Below are positions 1 to 38,904 of a stretch of DNA of 64,000 bases, piece by piece. Source of the DNA: an uncultured Alphaproteobacteria bacterium (GTDB taxonomy: Bacteria > Pseudomonadota > Alphaproteobacteria > HIMB59). The DNA is taken from positions 62,001 through 126,000 of the forward strand of contig CACLZM010000001.1 of the NCBI GenBank assembly GCA_902611415.1, written 5' to 3'. A program made the position numbers and the translations under genes. The notes beneath the pieces are model-generated. The model ran no database searches. It was not told the DNA's origin and saw nothing but the letters and a program-made list of their open reading frames with translations. Every line of letters begins with the position of its first letter. Position 1 is the first letter of the stretch.

Positions 1-591
1 ATAGAAACAGTCGAAAAAACTGAAATTTTATCAATTGGTAAGGGTCTCGAGCTCATTAAAGACTTAGGCGATGCAAATACTGTATCCAATCAATATGGCC
101 TTGATAAATTTATGGGTACCCACGGTATTGGCCATACAAGGATGGCTACCGAGTCTGATGTAGATATTAAATCCGCACACCCTTATTGGGCTTTCCCTTT
201 TGAGGATGTGTCAGTTGTTCATAATGGTCAATTGACTAATTATTGGGGCAATCGAAGAGTACTTGAAAGAAAAGGTTACAGGTTTAATTCAAATTGTGAC
301 TCAGAAATAATTGCTGTTTATATAGCTGATAAGATGGCTAACGGCATTGAACTAGAAAAAGCTATGCATGATAGCTTGGATGAACTCGATGGAGTTTTTA
401 CATATGTTGTAGCAACAAAGGATCAGTTGGGAATGGCAAAAGACCATATGGCCGCTAAGCCAATGGTAATCTACGAAAGTAAAGACATCGTAGCATGTGC
501 ATCAGAGGAAGTTGCAATTAGGAATATATTTCCTCACGAAATTAAAACATATGACCCTTATGAAGCGGAGGTAAAAGTATGGCAGGCATAA
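1..591 (+). CDS. Class II glutamine amidotransferase domain protein (MgsA/GlxB-like), 5' partial
   Basis: Frame 1 is open from base 1 (IETVEKTEILSIGKGLELIKDL...) into the listed ORF; motifs GTHGIGHTRMATES, HNGQLTNY, CDSEIIAVYIA of class II GATases; followed by GXGXG and FMN-GltS-like genes. Confidence 0.88.
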   Translation: METVEKTEILSIGKGLELIKDLGDANTVSNQYGLDKFMGTHGIGHTRMATESDVDIKSAHPYWAFPFEDVSVVHNGQLTNYWGNRRVLERKGYRFNSNCDSEIIAVYIADKMANGIELEKAMHDSLDELDGVFTYVVATKDQLGMAKDHMAAKPMVIYESKDIVACASEEVAIRNIFPHEIKTYDPYEAEVKVWQA

Positions 592-3844: not shown

Positions 3845-5152
3845 TTAACAATCTAGAGTTGTTTCTCTTTCCCAACTAGAAAGGTGTTTATTAAAAGTAC
3901 CCCAATCTTGATTTTTTAATTTTACATAGCTATTGACTAAATCATCACCAAAACCTGCTCTAATGATTTTTGATTTATCAAAATCACGTATTGCATCAAG
4001 AAGATTTAATGGCAATTTTTTTACTTTCCCAGCCTTGTGACCCTCTGTGTACATATTAATATCTAATCGTTTTCCAGGGTCTCTTTTATTATTTAAACCG
4101 TCCAAACCTAAAAGTAAAATACCTGCTTGAAGTAAATAAGGATTTGTAGCTCCATCCATTAATCTTAATTCAAATCTTCCTGCTCCAGGAACTCTTACCA
4201 TGTGTGTCCTGTTGTTACCTGCCCAAGTAATCGAGCTTGGCGACCATGTTGCACCTGATGTTGTTACACTACCGTTAATTCTTTTATAGGAGTTTACAGT
4301 TGGGTTAAAAACAGCAGCCATTTTGTCCGCACTTTCCATTATTCCACCTAAGAAATTGTAACCAGTTTTGGATAAACCTAATTCATCTTTTTTATCTAAA
4401 AACATATTTTTTTTGCCAGATTTATCCCAAATAGAAATATGACAATGACATCCATTACCTGTTAAATTTGTAAAAGGTTTGGGCATGAAAGTTGCCCTTA
4501 GTGAATGTTTTTCTGCAATAGATTTCACCATGAATTTAAAAAAAGCATGTCTATCTGCTGTTACTAAACAATCTGAAAAATCCCAGTTCATTTCAAATTG
4601 CCCATTCGCATCTTCATGATCGTTTTGGTAAGGTTTCCATCCTAGTGCAATCGTTGAGTCACATATCTCAGTGATAACATCATATCTTCTCATTAAAGCA
4701 GAGGAGTCATAGCATGGTTTTGCTTGCGTATCCCTTTGATCTGATAAAGATGTCCCGTCTTCATTGACCAAAAAAAATTCACATTCAACACCTGACTTCA
4801 TATAAAGATTTTTTTTAGCTGCTTCTTCTATTTGTCTTTTTAAGGCTATTCTGGGTGAAGCTTCTACTGGTTTACCATCCATATGCAAATCAGAGGCAAC
4901 CCAAGCTATTTCTTTATTCCAAGGAAGCTGGATAACACTATCACCATCAGGCATACCAAACATATCAGAGTCAGCTGGAGACATATCAAGCCATGTTGCA
5001 AAACCTGCAAACCCAGCTCCTTCAGATTGAATTTCATCTATAGCTGTTGCAGGTACAAGCTTTGATCTAAGCACCCCAAATAAATCTACAAAGCTTACAA
5101 AAAAATATTTGACACCATTTTTTTTAGCAAATTGGTGAAGGTTTGTTGCCAT
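3845..5152 (-). CDS. Glutamine synthetase family protein, GlnT / gamma-glutamylmethylamide synthetase (GmaS)-like
   Basis: GVECEFFLV, NGQFEMNWDF, GNGCHCHISIWD, NRTHMVRVPGAGRFELRLMDGATNPYL; 435 aa; beside Mgs/Glx-type genes. Confidence 0.85.
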   Translation of the reverse strand: MATNLHQFAKKNGVKYFFVSFVDLFGVLRSKLVPATAIDEIQSEGAGFAGFATWLDMSPADSDMFGMPDGDSVIQLPWNKEIAWVASDLHMDGKPVEASPRIALKRQIEEAAKKNLYMKSGVECEFFLVNEDGTSLSDQRDTQAKPCYDSSALMRRYDVITEICDSTIALGWKPYQNDHEDANGQFEMNWDFSDCLVTADRHAFFKFMVKSIAEKHSLRATFMPKPFTNLTGNGCHCHISIWDKSGKKNMFLDKKDELGLSKTGYNFLGGIMESADKMAAVFNPTVNSYKRINGSVTTSGATWSPSSITWAGNNRTHMVRVPGAGRFELRLMDGATNPYLLQAGILLLGLDGLNNKRDPGKRLDINMYTEGHKAGKVKKLPLNLLDAIRDFDKSKIIRAGFGDDLVNSYVKLKNQDWGTFNKHLSSWERETTLDC

Positions 5153-5385
5153 TATATATCTCCTCTATTTGAATATGCAAATAGTGCATACCATTAAAAA
5201 AACAATTGAACTCAATCTTTTTTTAACATTAATTAACTTCTTTTGATTTTATAATTAAGTCAATTAAAAGTAAAATACATAAAAGTACAGGAAAGAAGAT
5301 TCTAAAAAGTTGTAAAAAGATTTTTTCTCTGTTCTTTTTTATTTTTATAAAAATAAAAAGTAATAATTAATAAGGAGGTCATATA

Positions 5386-35123: not shown

Positions 35124-35201
35124 GGGGGTGTAGTTCAGTTTGGTTAGAACGCCTGCCTGTCACGCAGGAGGTCGCGGGTTCGAGTCCCGTCGCTCCCGCC
35201 A
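35124..35201 (+). tRNA. tRNA-Asp (GTC)
   Basis: GGGGGTG...CGCTCCC acceptor, anticodon loop CTGTCAC, discriminator G, CCA encoded; 3' end duplicated at 37830. Confidence 0.95.
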
Positions 35202-35202
35202 C
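35157..35202 (+). repeat. 46-bp direct repeat, copy 1 (attL-like; 3' half of tRNA-Asp)
   Basis: CTGTCACGCAGGAGGTCGCGGGTTCGAGTCCCGTCGCTCCCGCCAC identical to 37830..37875. Confidence 0.97.
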
Positions 35203-35316
35203 ATTAAGATAATCTTGGGTTATATATTTCCTAACTTTTTCAATACTTATCTGTTCAACAAAAATTAATTGAATCAATAAACCATGTCGTCTAATTCCAT
35301 AAAATTTCTTTCTAGT

Positions 35317-35336
35317 GGTGAACATATGGTGAGCAA
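35317..35336 (+). repeat. Putative integrase arm-type site pair, left
   Basis: GGTGAACATATGGTGAGCAA; two GGTGARCA units at 11-bp spacing; matches 37750..37769 except 2 positions. Confidence 0.55.
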
Positions 35337-35365
35337 AACCCCCCATGTACTTTTAGACAATAATA

Positions 35366-35530
35366 ATGGAAGTGATTTCAATGCAGAACAGATTTCCCAA
35401 TCCCATACCCTATAGCTTTGGGAAATGGGAAAGGCCAAAGAAGGTTATCTGTATTGCTTCAGAAATTAGAAAGTCACTTGAAGAGAGTGATCAAAAAGAA
35501 CTACATAAACTATTTTGGAAGAGAGCATAA
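35366..35530 (+). CDS. Small protein of the tRNA-Asp element (54 aa)
   Basis: MEVISMQNRFPNPIPYSFGKWERPKKVICIASEIRKSLEESDQKELHKLFWKRA; stop TAA directly abuts the next ATG (gcataaATGg). Not in ORF track. Confidence 0.55.
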   Translation: MEVISMQNRFPNPIPYSFGKWERPKKVICIASEIRKSLEESDQKELHKLFWKRA

Positions 35531-35716
35531 ATGGATCGTTACTTATCGGACTATGAAAAACTTCTTCATGAATACGAAAGGATTGAGTCAAAACTTAATA
35601 GCCTTTTTATTCAGACTGATCTATCAGAGTCAGCTAGAAAGAAGTTAGAAATAAGTTTGAAGAGAAGATTAAAAACACTACTACCTGAACTAAGAAAAAA
35701 AGAATTAGAAGTTTAA
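35531..35716 (+). CDS. Small charged, probably helical protein of the tRNA-Asp element (61 aa)
   Basis: MDRYLSDYEKLLHEYERIESKLNSLFIQTDLSESARKKLEISLKRRLKTLLPELRKKELEV; translationally abutting the 54-aa ORF. Confidence 0.55.
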   Translation: MDRYLSDYEKLLHEYERIESKLNSLFIQTDLSESARKKLEISLKRRLKTLLPELRKKELEV

Positions 35717-35754
35717 TATCGTTTCTAGTTCATTCGTGTCGTTACTTAAATTCT

Positions 35755-35792
35755 TCCAAATTTGATGAATTTAATGCGAAATTAATTGAAAT
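35755..35792 (+). repeat. 38-bp near-identical direct repeat, copy 1 (flanks hydrolase gene)
   Basis: TCCAAATTTGATGAATTTAATGCGAAATTAATTGAAAT; one mismatch to 37279..37316. Confidence 0.95.
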
Positions 35793-35803
35793 TGATTCAA
35801 TTT

Positions 35804-37231
35804 TTACATTAAGTATTCTTCAAGCAAAGATATTGTTTTTTTTGCAGAATTAATAGCCGCTTCATTGTTTCTTCCCTCTACGACCCCCCAATGCTCACAT
35901 TCTTTTTTATAATCTTTGTAATGCTTATCAGCAGAAACATCCCAAGTATCGTAATTATCTAAATGAATTACTTTATCTTCCATTCGCCACGTTCTTTTTC
36001 CATCCGCAGCAAGCCAGTATTTGCAATTTTTAGTTACTCTAAACCATTGATTTGAAAATTCTGCCTCATCCCAATTGCTCCATCCATCAAAGTTATGATG
36101 GGCGTTAGGAAAAATATCTATAGTTGCATTACCACCAAAATCGTTAAAGTTTTTTGCCATATCTTTACAAAATAAGGCAGGAGTAGTCTCATCCTTTTCA
36201 CCTGTTAAAAAATGAATTTTATTTTTAGTTACACCCTGTTTATCTAAATATCTACAATATGGATAAACTCCTATTCTTAATGCAAAATCATTTAAATTTT
36301 CATCATCAATTATTGGCTTTCTAATCATATCAAGACCAGTGTAAACTGCAGATGAACCACCCCAACTAAAACCCATTACCGCAATTTTTTCAGGATCTAT
36401 TTTGGGATGAGATTGCATGTGCTTTAAACCATAGAGAGCGTCAGCTGCTCCCATCCATGGTGTTAGTTTACTGCTGTTGCCTTGGATAATCATATTGTAA
36501 ATACTGAGGCCTCGTGGAAGACAGCTATCAATCTCTAATGTAGCAACACCTGCTTTTTTTATATCCTGACCTAAAGTAAAATTTCTTTGCCCAAAGTCAC
36601 AGGCAGAATTCATAATTAAAATCATTAAAGGATATTTTTCTTTTTGCTCTTGAGGGTAAGTTAAAAAACCCTCAATCGTATATTTTTGATCATTTTCAAC
36701 ACCATCTATAAAATCAATAGGAATTCTGGGAGTAAATGCTTCAAATTTAACATTCTCTGCTCGATAGAGCAGAGCATCGCAATTATTCCATTCATCAGTG
36801 ACCTCAATATGATTATTGCTTGACATTTTCCCAAACCACTTCCTGGTATTATCCTTATCATCAACAGGCTCTTTGCTTACAATTTCGAAAGAATTCTCAT
36901 TAACCTTAAATGATTTTATTTTGACTCTTCCTCCAAAAGATGGCCAAAGCCATTTTTCTTTTTTTATAATAACTTTTTTGGGATCTTTCTTATCTTTTTT
37001 GATAACTAGATCAATTACACCTTCAATAATTCCATTGCCTAACTCATAGCGTCCATTCCATTCGCAATTAGCTAAACCTCTCCATCTCCCAATGATATCT
37101 GAAGATATTTCCTCAGATTTTAATACTTTATCTTCCGTTTTTTCATTGCCATCAACTTGTTGCCCATCCTTAAAAGTAAGTCCCCAACTCAAACTAGGGA
37201 TTAATAGTAATAGGGTGATAATTATTCTCAT
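35804..37231 (-). CDS. Secreted dienelactone hydrolase-like alpha/beta hydrolase
   Basis: Signal peptide MRIIITLLLLIPSLSWG; GFSWGGSSA nucleophile, GEKDETTPA acid, NAHHNFDG histidine. Confidence 0.82.
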   Translation of the reverse strand: MRIIITLLLLIPSLSWGLTFKDGQQVDGNEKTEDKVLKSEEISSDIIGRWRGLANCEWNGRYELGNGIIEGVIDLVIKKDKKDPKKVIIKKEKWLWPSFGGRVKIKSFKVNENSFEIVSKEPVDDKDNTRKWFGKMSSNNHIEVTDEWNNCDALLYRAENVKFEAFTPRIPIDFIDGVENDQKYTIEGFLTYPQEQKEKYPLMILIMNSACDFGQRNFTLGQDIKKAGVATLEIDSCLPRGLSIYNMIIQGNSSKLTPWMGAADALYGLKHMQSHPKIDPEKIAVMGFSWGGSSAVYTGLDMIRKPIIDDENLNDFALRIGVYPYCRYLDKQGVTKNKIHFLTGEKDETTPALFCKDMAKNFNDFGGNATIDIFPNAHHNFDGWSNWDEAEFSNQWFRVTKNCKYWLAADGKRTWRMEDKVIHLDNYDTWDVSADKHYKDYKKECEHWGVVEGRNNEAAINSAKKTISLLEEYLM

Positions 37232-37278
37232 AAGATATATTATTGTTCATAGTGGATTTAAAATCAAAACGAAATTTG

Positions 37279-37316
37279 TCCAAATTTGATGAATTTAATG
37301 CGAAATTAATCGAAAT
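37279..37316 (+). repeat. 38-bp near-identical direct repeat, copy 2
   Basis: TCCAAATTTGATGAATTTAATGCGAAATTAATCGAAAT; one mismatch to 35755..35792. Confidence 0.95.
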
Positions 37317-37749
37317 ACTTCTCTATACAAATAAAATGCTCTCTCTAAGAGGGGGTTATTAGGGTTATTTTGTTAATGTTTTCAATAGTTGATACGGAGT
37401 TATTAGTAGTTTTTCCGTATTTCTCGCACAGAACTCTCGTAGGTAATGTAACCTTTTGTTACCCTGAAATGTTTACTTTTGTTAACTTTGAAAGCTACGC
37501 ATAGGGGGGGTTCAAAATTAGTAAAGGTACACTTTAATACATGTTTAACACGCATTTTTGAATCGTAGGGTACGAAGTAAATGCTACCCCCGTAACAAGT
37601 TAACATGAGGCTAACACCATGCTCTATGATTCCTAAAACAGCGTTTCGCGGTGCATGATCCATGGTCAAATATCAATGGATATTCTGTTCACCAATATTG
37701 GAATATTTGAATCATTATTTCGTAAAATGTGGTAGTGTTTCACTAGAAA

Positions 37750-37769
37750 GGTGAACACTTGGTGAGCAA
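37750..37769 (+). repeat. Putative integrase arm-type site pair, right
   Basis: GGTGAACACTTGGTGAGCAA; an inverted TGTTCACC copy also lies at 37686..37693. Confidence 0.55.
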
Positions 37770-38904
37770 CTCTTATGGGTGTTTAAAAAGTCTTGGTAAT
37801 ATAGGCTTAAAACGACCTAGGATTCCTTACTGTCACGCAGGAGGTCGCGGGTTCGAGTCCCGTCGCTCCCGCCACTTCAAAACATTCATTTCGTTTTTTT
37901 TAATTTTTTCTTTATTTTCATGTTCTTCTTATAAATCAAAAGATGTTCATGGATTAAAGACACTTGGTATGAGCTTTGGCGATACAACAATTAAAGGTTT
38001 TAAAATTGACCCAGGTTGGAATGCTAGTTCAAAAGAAGAAATAAAAAAATATCAAAGAAAAAAGAACTTGGTACTTTTTCAACTTCAGAAAGAGAAAACA
38101 AGATACGGAGATACTGCTTTTTTTATCCAAGCACCAGGAGATGAGTGTTATAACAAATTAAAAGATTGCTCACGACCAAATGGTGAAAAACAAAAAAGAG
38201 TAGAGGTAGGAACCAATTATGGTTTTCAAGGAGAAATATGGTTATCTTATTCTTTTTTAATCACAGAAAATTACGAACTAAATAATGATAGTGCTATGAA
38301 TAAATCAATATTGCAATTTCATAGCACAGAGAGTTTTTTTGGTCCTATGTTTATGCTTCAAATAGACAAGAAGAAAGGTTTGCTTTGGAGACACGAATCT
38401 AGTGAGGGAGTTATTATTATTGAAGGAGGGAATGATGATTGCTCACCTGGTGCTGGAGGTCCAGAGGATACTGATAAAAGAATTTTTTGTGAAGCTAGGC
38501 ATGATTGGTACCAAATAATATCTGCAAAAAATTTACAAAGAAATAAATGGTATGATTTAGTCTTCAATATTAATTTTAATAAAAAGGATATTTCCAAAGC
38601 TTTTCATAAAATTTGGTTAAATGGAAAGTTATTGCATTACAGAAAAAACCAAACACTCTGGAAAGATCAAAAAAGTGTAAAAAACTCAGATAATTTGGCA
38701 AATTTTAAATTTGGTATTTATGGTTCAAGATTAGATGGCTCTTATCAATCTATTTATGCTGATGAAATCCACTTTGGAACTGAATGTAAGGACCTTTTAA
38801 TAGAAAATATTGGCTATTATTGTAGTAATTTAAAAAAACAAACAATAAATGAATCATTTCCTATCTTTACAGAAGATAGAGTTGCTTATTATACTAGAGG
38901 ATAA
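37759..38904 (+). CDS. Secreted lipoprotein, polysaccharide-lyase-like (heparin lyase I/PF14099-type fold suspected); annotated 5' end chimeric with att repeat
   Basis: SFFLIFSLFSC lipobox; RNKWYDLVFNINFN..KIWLNGKLLHYRK..FKFGIYGSRLDGSYQSIYADEIHFG. First ~38 codons lie in element end/tRNA fragment, so true start is uncertain. Confidence 0.55.
   Translation: MVSNSYGCLKSLGNIGLKRPRIPYCHAGGRGFESRRSRHFKTFISFFLIFSLFSCSSYKSKDVHGLKTLGMSFGDTTIKGFKIDPGWNASSKEEIKKYQRKKNLVLFQLQKEKTRYGDTAFFIQAPGDECYNKLKDCSRPNGEKQKRVEVGTNYGFQGEIWLSYSFLITENYELNNDSAMNKSILQFHSTESFFGPMFMLQIDKKKGLLWRHESSEGVIIIEGGNDDCSPGAGGPEDTDKRIFCEARHDWYQIISAKNLQRNKWYDLVFNINFNKKDISKAFHKIWLNGKLLHYRKNQTLWKDQKSVKNSDNLANFKFGIYGSRLDGSYQSIYADEIHFGTECKDLLIENIGYYCSNLKKQTINESFPIFTEDRVAYYTRG
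37830..37875 (+). repeat. 46-bp direct repeat, copy 2 (attR-like partial tRNA-Asp)
   Basis: Exact copy of the 3' part of tRNA-Asp without D-arm or 5' acceptor strand. Confidence 0.97.

Follow-up and report, generated by a model that had tools for sequence, protein, structure and literature searches.

The 64,000-nt stretch of genome G000 that we analysed, referred to here as the window, carries a 2.7-kb island at a tRNA-Asp gene, in a neighbourhood whose gene order (lon, HU, tRNA-Val, tRNA-Asp, nuoA) points to an alphaproteobacterium. The island is bounded by att cores and contains a hydrolase gene and a short ORF (Table 1). The gene that follows attR (37890-38904) is polysaccharide-lyase-like (PF14099, E 4.1e-17) and has the look of a lipoprotein. 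Where the site is empty, the longest ORF called for this gene and the 3' end of tRNA-Asp overlap.

Table 1. Features of the tRNA-Asp island in the window, with candidate arm words of other islands in the genus.
Feature	Position	Strand	Basis or remark
tRNA-Asp(gtc), target gene, intact after insertion	35124..35201	+	ARAGORN and Rfam
attL core, 46 bp identical to the attR copy	35157..35202	+	precise empty sites in 14 relatives
Left inverted unit, candidate arm site, TGTTCAAC	35252..35259	-	TGTTCACC in G020, TGCTCACC in G038; conserved block in left-end alignment
Left candidate arm pair, 20-mer GGTGAACATATGGTGAGCAA = GGTGAACA TAT GGTGAGCA A	35317..35336	+	identical in G004, G013, G016, G023, G025 and G047
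Scar of integrase-module deletion, 8-bp overlap of two alignment blocks	35390..35397	.	blastn vs G004; ~4.66 kb of G004/G023 missing
61-aa ORF kept from 3' part of integrase-bearing element	35531..35716	+	matching ORF in G023 at +4991..5176
45-bp direct repeat, copy 1, at cargo gene border	35748..35792	+	single copy in G004/G023
Cargo gene, dienelactone-hydrolase-type enzyme, 475 aa, signal-peptide-like start	35804..37231	-	Pfam DLH PF01738, E 4.5e-08, above cut-off
45-bp direct repeat, copy 2, 42/45 identical to copy 1	37272..37316	+	repeat comparison
Right inverted unit, candidate arm site, TGTTCACC	37686..37693	-	64 bp upstream of right pair
Right candidate arm pair, 20-mer GGTGAACACTTGGTGAGCAA = GGTGAACA CTT GGTGAGCA A	37750..37769	+	identical in G004, G016 and G023
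attR core, partial tRNA-Asp copy, 46 bp	37830..37875	+	match to attL core
tRNA-Arg islands, four genomes, AGGGTACACAT			left pair; right end with single clear unit and inverted unit
Arm word of Arg-type integrase, AGGGTACACA			
tRNA-Met island, arm word CGTTGCCAA			
tRNA-Gly island, arm word TTGTGACA			
tRNA-Thr island, arm word GGGTACAC			pitch 12 left, 11 right
Integrase-less tRNA-Gly islet of G003, 1.18 kb, CTCCGAC arm pairs at both ends	tRNA-Gly end +1 to +1178 (L232, G003:C4)		

Near each end of the island lies a pair of GGTGARCA units, which an earlier note on this DNA had proposed as arm sites of an integrase. The two 20-mers were found as described there: they are 18/20 identical, their units are 11 bp apart, and they lie inward of the att sites, by ~115 bp at the left end and by ~60 bp at the right. 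The inverted unit that had been reported at the right end is present as well. The left end also bears an inverted unit, 65 bp before the left pair, which the earlier note did not list and which is imperfect in the window element. Single GGTGARCA units occur seven times in the window (1.8 expected), five of them inside the element, and the pair pattern with up to two mismatches occurs twice (0.07 expected), both times without a mismatch. Across the whole 1.24-Mb assembly, the only exact pairs are the two copies at the element ends, accompanied by one site with two mismatches. Commonness of the motif across the genome had been named as a reason to abandon the proposal, and the motif is not common.

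In the sister genomes G004 and G023, the same tRNA-Asp is occupied by an island of ~5.8 kb, with 5.57 kb between the pairs. The distance from the left att inward to the left pair is again 115 bp, the right pair precedes the right att, and both pairs are letter-for-letter identical to those of the window, a comparison that the earlier note had suggested as a check. The 419-aa tyrosine integrase of this island combines an arm-binding domain at its N-terminus (PF13356, Arm-DNA-bind_3, E 1.3e-11) with a PF00589 domain (E 7.7e-11). The other products of the island are a 365-aa protein without a family call, a 77-aa AlpA/HTH_17-like protein of the HTH_17/phrog_66-like excisionase type, a Toprim primase-like protein and an AAA_25 ATPase. 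Among the family calls above cut-off there was none for a relaxase or for conjugation, and one gene of the element has no assignment.

When aligned by blastn, G000 and G004 match in two blocks, from -200..196 to -200..196 (99%) and from 189..591 to 4846..5248 (98%). The blocks share 8 bp at the joint, and the alignment implies that a single deletion of ~4.66 kb took the entire integrase and replication module. The same scar is found in G000, G016, G025, G042 and G047. The hydrolase gene of the window island lies between two copies of the 45-bp repeat, where G004 and G023 have one. Judging from these alignments, the window island is a G004/G023-type element minus ~4.66 kb that held the whole integrase and the replication genes, plus a hydrolase gene. 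Only two PF00589 proteins were found in its own assembly, both Xer-like (best NCBIfam matches XerC/XerD, below the curated cut-offs). This bears out the suggestion that recombination sites were retained without the enzyme, within an assembly that is 81% complete and in which a helper integrase of the same cell may have been missed.

Two properties of arm-type sites are present here, namely element-specific repeats on both sides of the core and a related integrase with an arm-binding N-terminal domain. Conservation and concerted change of the pairs point in the same direction. In the diverged left ends of G020 and G038 (~86-87% identical overall), the GGTGAAC/GGTGA of the pair (GGTGAACA) is invariant, while much of its surroundings drifts. 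The inverted unit 64-65 bp upstream of the pair is shared by the two ends of the window element, G020 and G038. Where the word differs, both units of the pair have changed together, to GGTGAACC..GGTGAACC in G042 and to GGTGAACG..GGTGAACG in a second, tandem island of G004. An origin of the right end as a duplicate of the left one was considered and rejected, as the two ends are alike mainly in the motifs: aligned in fixed register outside these, they are identical at 26/56 positions between inverted unit and pair and at 10/38 positions past the pair, i.e., nearly unrelated.

Elsewhere in the genus, the ends of integrase islands (at tRNA-Arg, -Met, -Gly and -Thr) have direct repeats as well, with a pitch of 11-12 bp and a word of their own in each (Table 1). 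A 160-bp segment has a probability of 0.029 of containing an 8-nt repeat with a pitch of 10-12 bp by chance. In the Gly, Met and Thr islands, whose integrases differ, the repeats are paired at both ends; no end pairs were seen in the tRNA-Arg island of G045, which has a different integrase. The reading of the GGTGARCA pairs as arm sites is thus supported by their rarity, the identical arms of relatives, conservation, concerted change and the repeats of other islands. Very probably, the pairs and the adjoining inverted units are arm-type sites of a PF13356 integrase, and the window island is a non-autonomous deletion derivative (hereafter islet) that a helper would mobilize.

Three other readings have to be weighed against this one. 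That the pairs are chance repeats or belong to a genome-wide repeat family could be argued from the fact that 8-mers arise by chance and that exact pairs occur in unrelated genomes of many phyla. Our scan of genome contigs for the exact pair gave more than 118 scattered matches, which we estimate to be about the chance level for a pattern of such size. In viral contigs the exact pair had one match, inside a coding sequence; the contig is GC-rich, the part of it that was inspected contains no tRNA, and the match was taken as chance. However, when 52 genomes of the genus were scanned with up to one mismatch, all 14 pairs were in islands directly downstream of tRNA-Asp, and a reversed control pattern gave 0 matches in the same scan. 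This refutes the reading within the genus, and we give it virtually no credence. The pairs might instead be sites of a recombination directionality factor, such as the AlpA-like HTH protein, or an operator of the integrase promoter. The left pair lies ~170 bp upstream of the likely integrase start in G004 and G023, the helper element does code for an excisionase-type protein, and direct repeats spaced by roughly one helical turn can serve as binding sites for winged-helix directionality factors and BldC-type proteins (PMC11963761). Yet the identical pair is present at both ends, with no integrase start beside the right one, and the islands at tRNA-Gly, -Met and -Thr are likewise paired at both ends with other integrases. 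Moreover, RdfS of ICEMlSym binds the attL region, upstream of one arm site (PMC11963761). Such a role for the pairs is distinctly improbable.

The third reading accepts the arms and holds that the islet is dead: the arms would be left from a recent integrase-bearing ancestor, and the islet would have been distributed by vertical descent or by homologous recombination of the region. The deletion scar common to all integrase-less hydrolase copies fits this, as does the loss of the right end in G042 and G047, whose copies are presumably fixed. Against it stands the comparison of G000 with G025: identity is 97.9% across the island, but 86.0% in the upstream and 80.0% in the downstream flank, and it falls at the right att boundary. 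Over its first 183 bp, the island shows 100% identity in G016, G025 and G047. In addition, the site is cleanly empty in 14 relatives, whose alignments cross the junction without a break. One of them, G044, shares 98.8% identity with G000 over 10.1 kb and 99.7-99.8% near the site. The islet of G000 also combines a left end of the G004 type with a body of the G016 type, which shows that it has been recombining. A dead islet is thus rather unlikely in our judgement. The identity contrast in G025 and the clean empty sites suggest that the integrase-less form was most likely gained or lost site-specifically, and transferred, after the enzyme was lost. The simplest cause of this movement would be a helper integrase with the same arms, acting in trans or from an island in tandem. 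Transfer of the islet by homologous recombination in the DNA that flanks the tRNA is an alternative, but the fall in identity at the right att boundary in G025 counts against that route. Tandem islands are found in G004 at tRNA-Asp and in G003 at tRNA-Gly, and none in the window genome.

For a mobilized islet, the following mechanism can be proposed. Islands of this family would insert in the 3' end of tRNA-Asp by means of a tyrosine integrase of the Arm-DNA-bind_3 (PF13356) type that binds the pairs and the inverted units. The window islet would be non-autonomous, with both att cores and both arm sets kept after a single deletion had taken the integrase, the AlpA-like protein, the primase and the helicase-like ATPase, and its hydrolase gene would be exchangeable cargo. 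On the excised circle, the predicted att site spans ~300 bp and has the order [inverted unit - 64 bp - pair] - ~61 bp - core - ~50 bp - [inverted unit - 65 bp - pair]. The integrase of a helper island with matching arms would bind and bridge core and arms, either in trans or from a tandem position, and so bring about excision or insertion of the islet. Such a helper island is present in the sister species and was not found in the islet's own assembly.

Paired arm-type sites of a tyrosine integrase are known from phage lambda. In Cluster J mycobacteriophages, putative arm-type sites P1/P2 and P3/P4 are paired direct repeats that flank a tRNA-overlapping 44-bp core, with inverted copies also at the integrase start (PMC3706429), and IntS of ICEMlSym requires five P/arm motifs in a 283-bp attP for efficient integration (PMC11963761). 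The sites described here resemble these in that direct repeats of ~10 bp lie on both sides of a core, here of 46 bp. They differ in the word GGTGARCA, the 11-bp pitch, the same orientation at both ends and the inverted unit 64-65 bp before each pair.

Among integrase-less elements, the islet is most readily compared with CIMEs, which have lost integration and transfer genes and kept attL and attR (PMC5704250), as exemplified by ICESt1-derived elements (Pavlovic 2004 and Bellanger 2011, as cited in PMC5704250). Like a CIME, the islet retains attL and attR (46-bp cores, empty sites) and lacks the integration genes that the related G004/G023 element has at this tRNA; in G004, islands occur there in tandem. 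Unlike a CIME, it has a parent or helper in which no conjugation or mobilization genes were detected (integrase, HTH, Toprim primase and AAA_25 ATPase), it stands alone in the window without an adjoining helper, and its arm sites are resolved. We therefore call it CIME-like rather than a certain member of that class, as its parent shows no conjugation genes. Integrase-less islands beside integrase-bearing ones at one RNA gene have already been described in Dehalococcoides (PMC3146451). The islet also shares with tycheposons of marine bacteria (4-200 kb; PMC10872708) and with VEIMEs and phage satellites (PMC11389934) that it is a tRNA-bounded cargo island of a streamlined bacterium associated with tyrosine recombinases, and the gene set of the G004 helper (integrase, AlpA-like, primase, helicase-like) is similar to theirs. 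Unlike tycheposons, it is 2.7 kb long and without the recombinase that its G004/G023 relatives have. No sign of packaging in virus-like particles was found: neither the hydrolase cargo nor the helper integrase had close relatives in viral contigs, in a search sensitive to close relatives only. MITEs and CALINs, hitchers without an enzyme (PMC11389934), are likewise deletion derivatives that keep recombination sites and need the recombinase of a helper; in contrast to these, the islet would depend on a site-specific tyrosine integrase at a tRNA and not on a transposase or an integron integrase.

Further islands of the genus combine arm words with an apparent absence of integrase. In the tandem second tRNA-Asp island of G004 (L175, G004:C3), which follows the core at +5772, the changed arm lies at +115 from the island's own core. 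It codes for a 1107-aa ResIII/Helicase_C/Mrr_cat_2 protein with a possible role in defence; an integrase was not found. The tRNA-Asp island of G038 (L181, +238 to +3915) has a left pair of the GGTGAACA type, no integrase was found in it, and its three-gene set looks by eye like what we take to be a MoxR ATPase/DUF58/transglutaminase operon. The 1.18-kb islet at tRNA-Gly of G003 contains a single cargo ORF of 313 aa and lies in tandem with a 6.1-kb integrase island; when a second source of CTCCGAC arms was looked for, the G003 locus was the only one found.

The same hydrolase gene, with the same boundary, is present in the integrase-bearing tRNA-Arg island of G035 (L226), where it is 97.5% identical to the window copy and 99.3% to that of the G042 islet. 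This indicates that cargo moves between islands at different tRNAs. We had considered the 45-bp repeats as a 'Xer-dif module', which was dropped because the same boundary lies beside the same gene in the tRNA-Arg island. The cargo proteins of Arg, Asp, Met and Gly islands (G035 L226, G042 L185, G050 L230 and G003 L232, respectively) have near-identical signal-peptide-like starts, e.g., MKTLLALLLLIPSLSWG, and unrelated mature parts. Cargo may be exchanged by homologous recombination at this common leader.

Four cases, i.e., the tRNA-Asp hydrolase islet, the G038 tRNA-Asp island, the second G004 island and the G003 tRNA-Gly islet, raise the tentative possibility that integrase-less islets with full arm sets are a recurrent and actively moving class in this genus. 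They would be tyrosine-integrase counterparts of MITEs that parasitize helpers in trans, with an arm word of its own for each integrase, and would serve as shuttles for exchangeable secreted-enzyme cargo. Integrase islands and their integrase-less derivatives could be recognised in streamlined bacteria from their DNA alone, by paired 8-11-bp direct repeats with a one-turn pitch at both ends, no more than ~160 bp inside the att. As the arm word would identify the helper integrase, orphan cargo islets could be linked to the enzyme able to move them. The islet also indicates that an island can go on spreading between species once its integrase is lost, which bears on how bacteria with small genomes may exchange niche genes cheaply.
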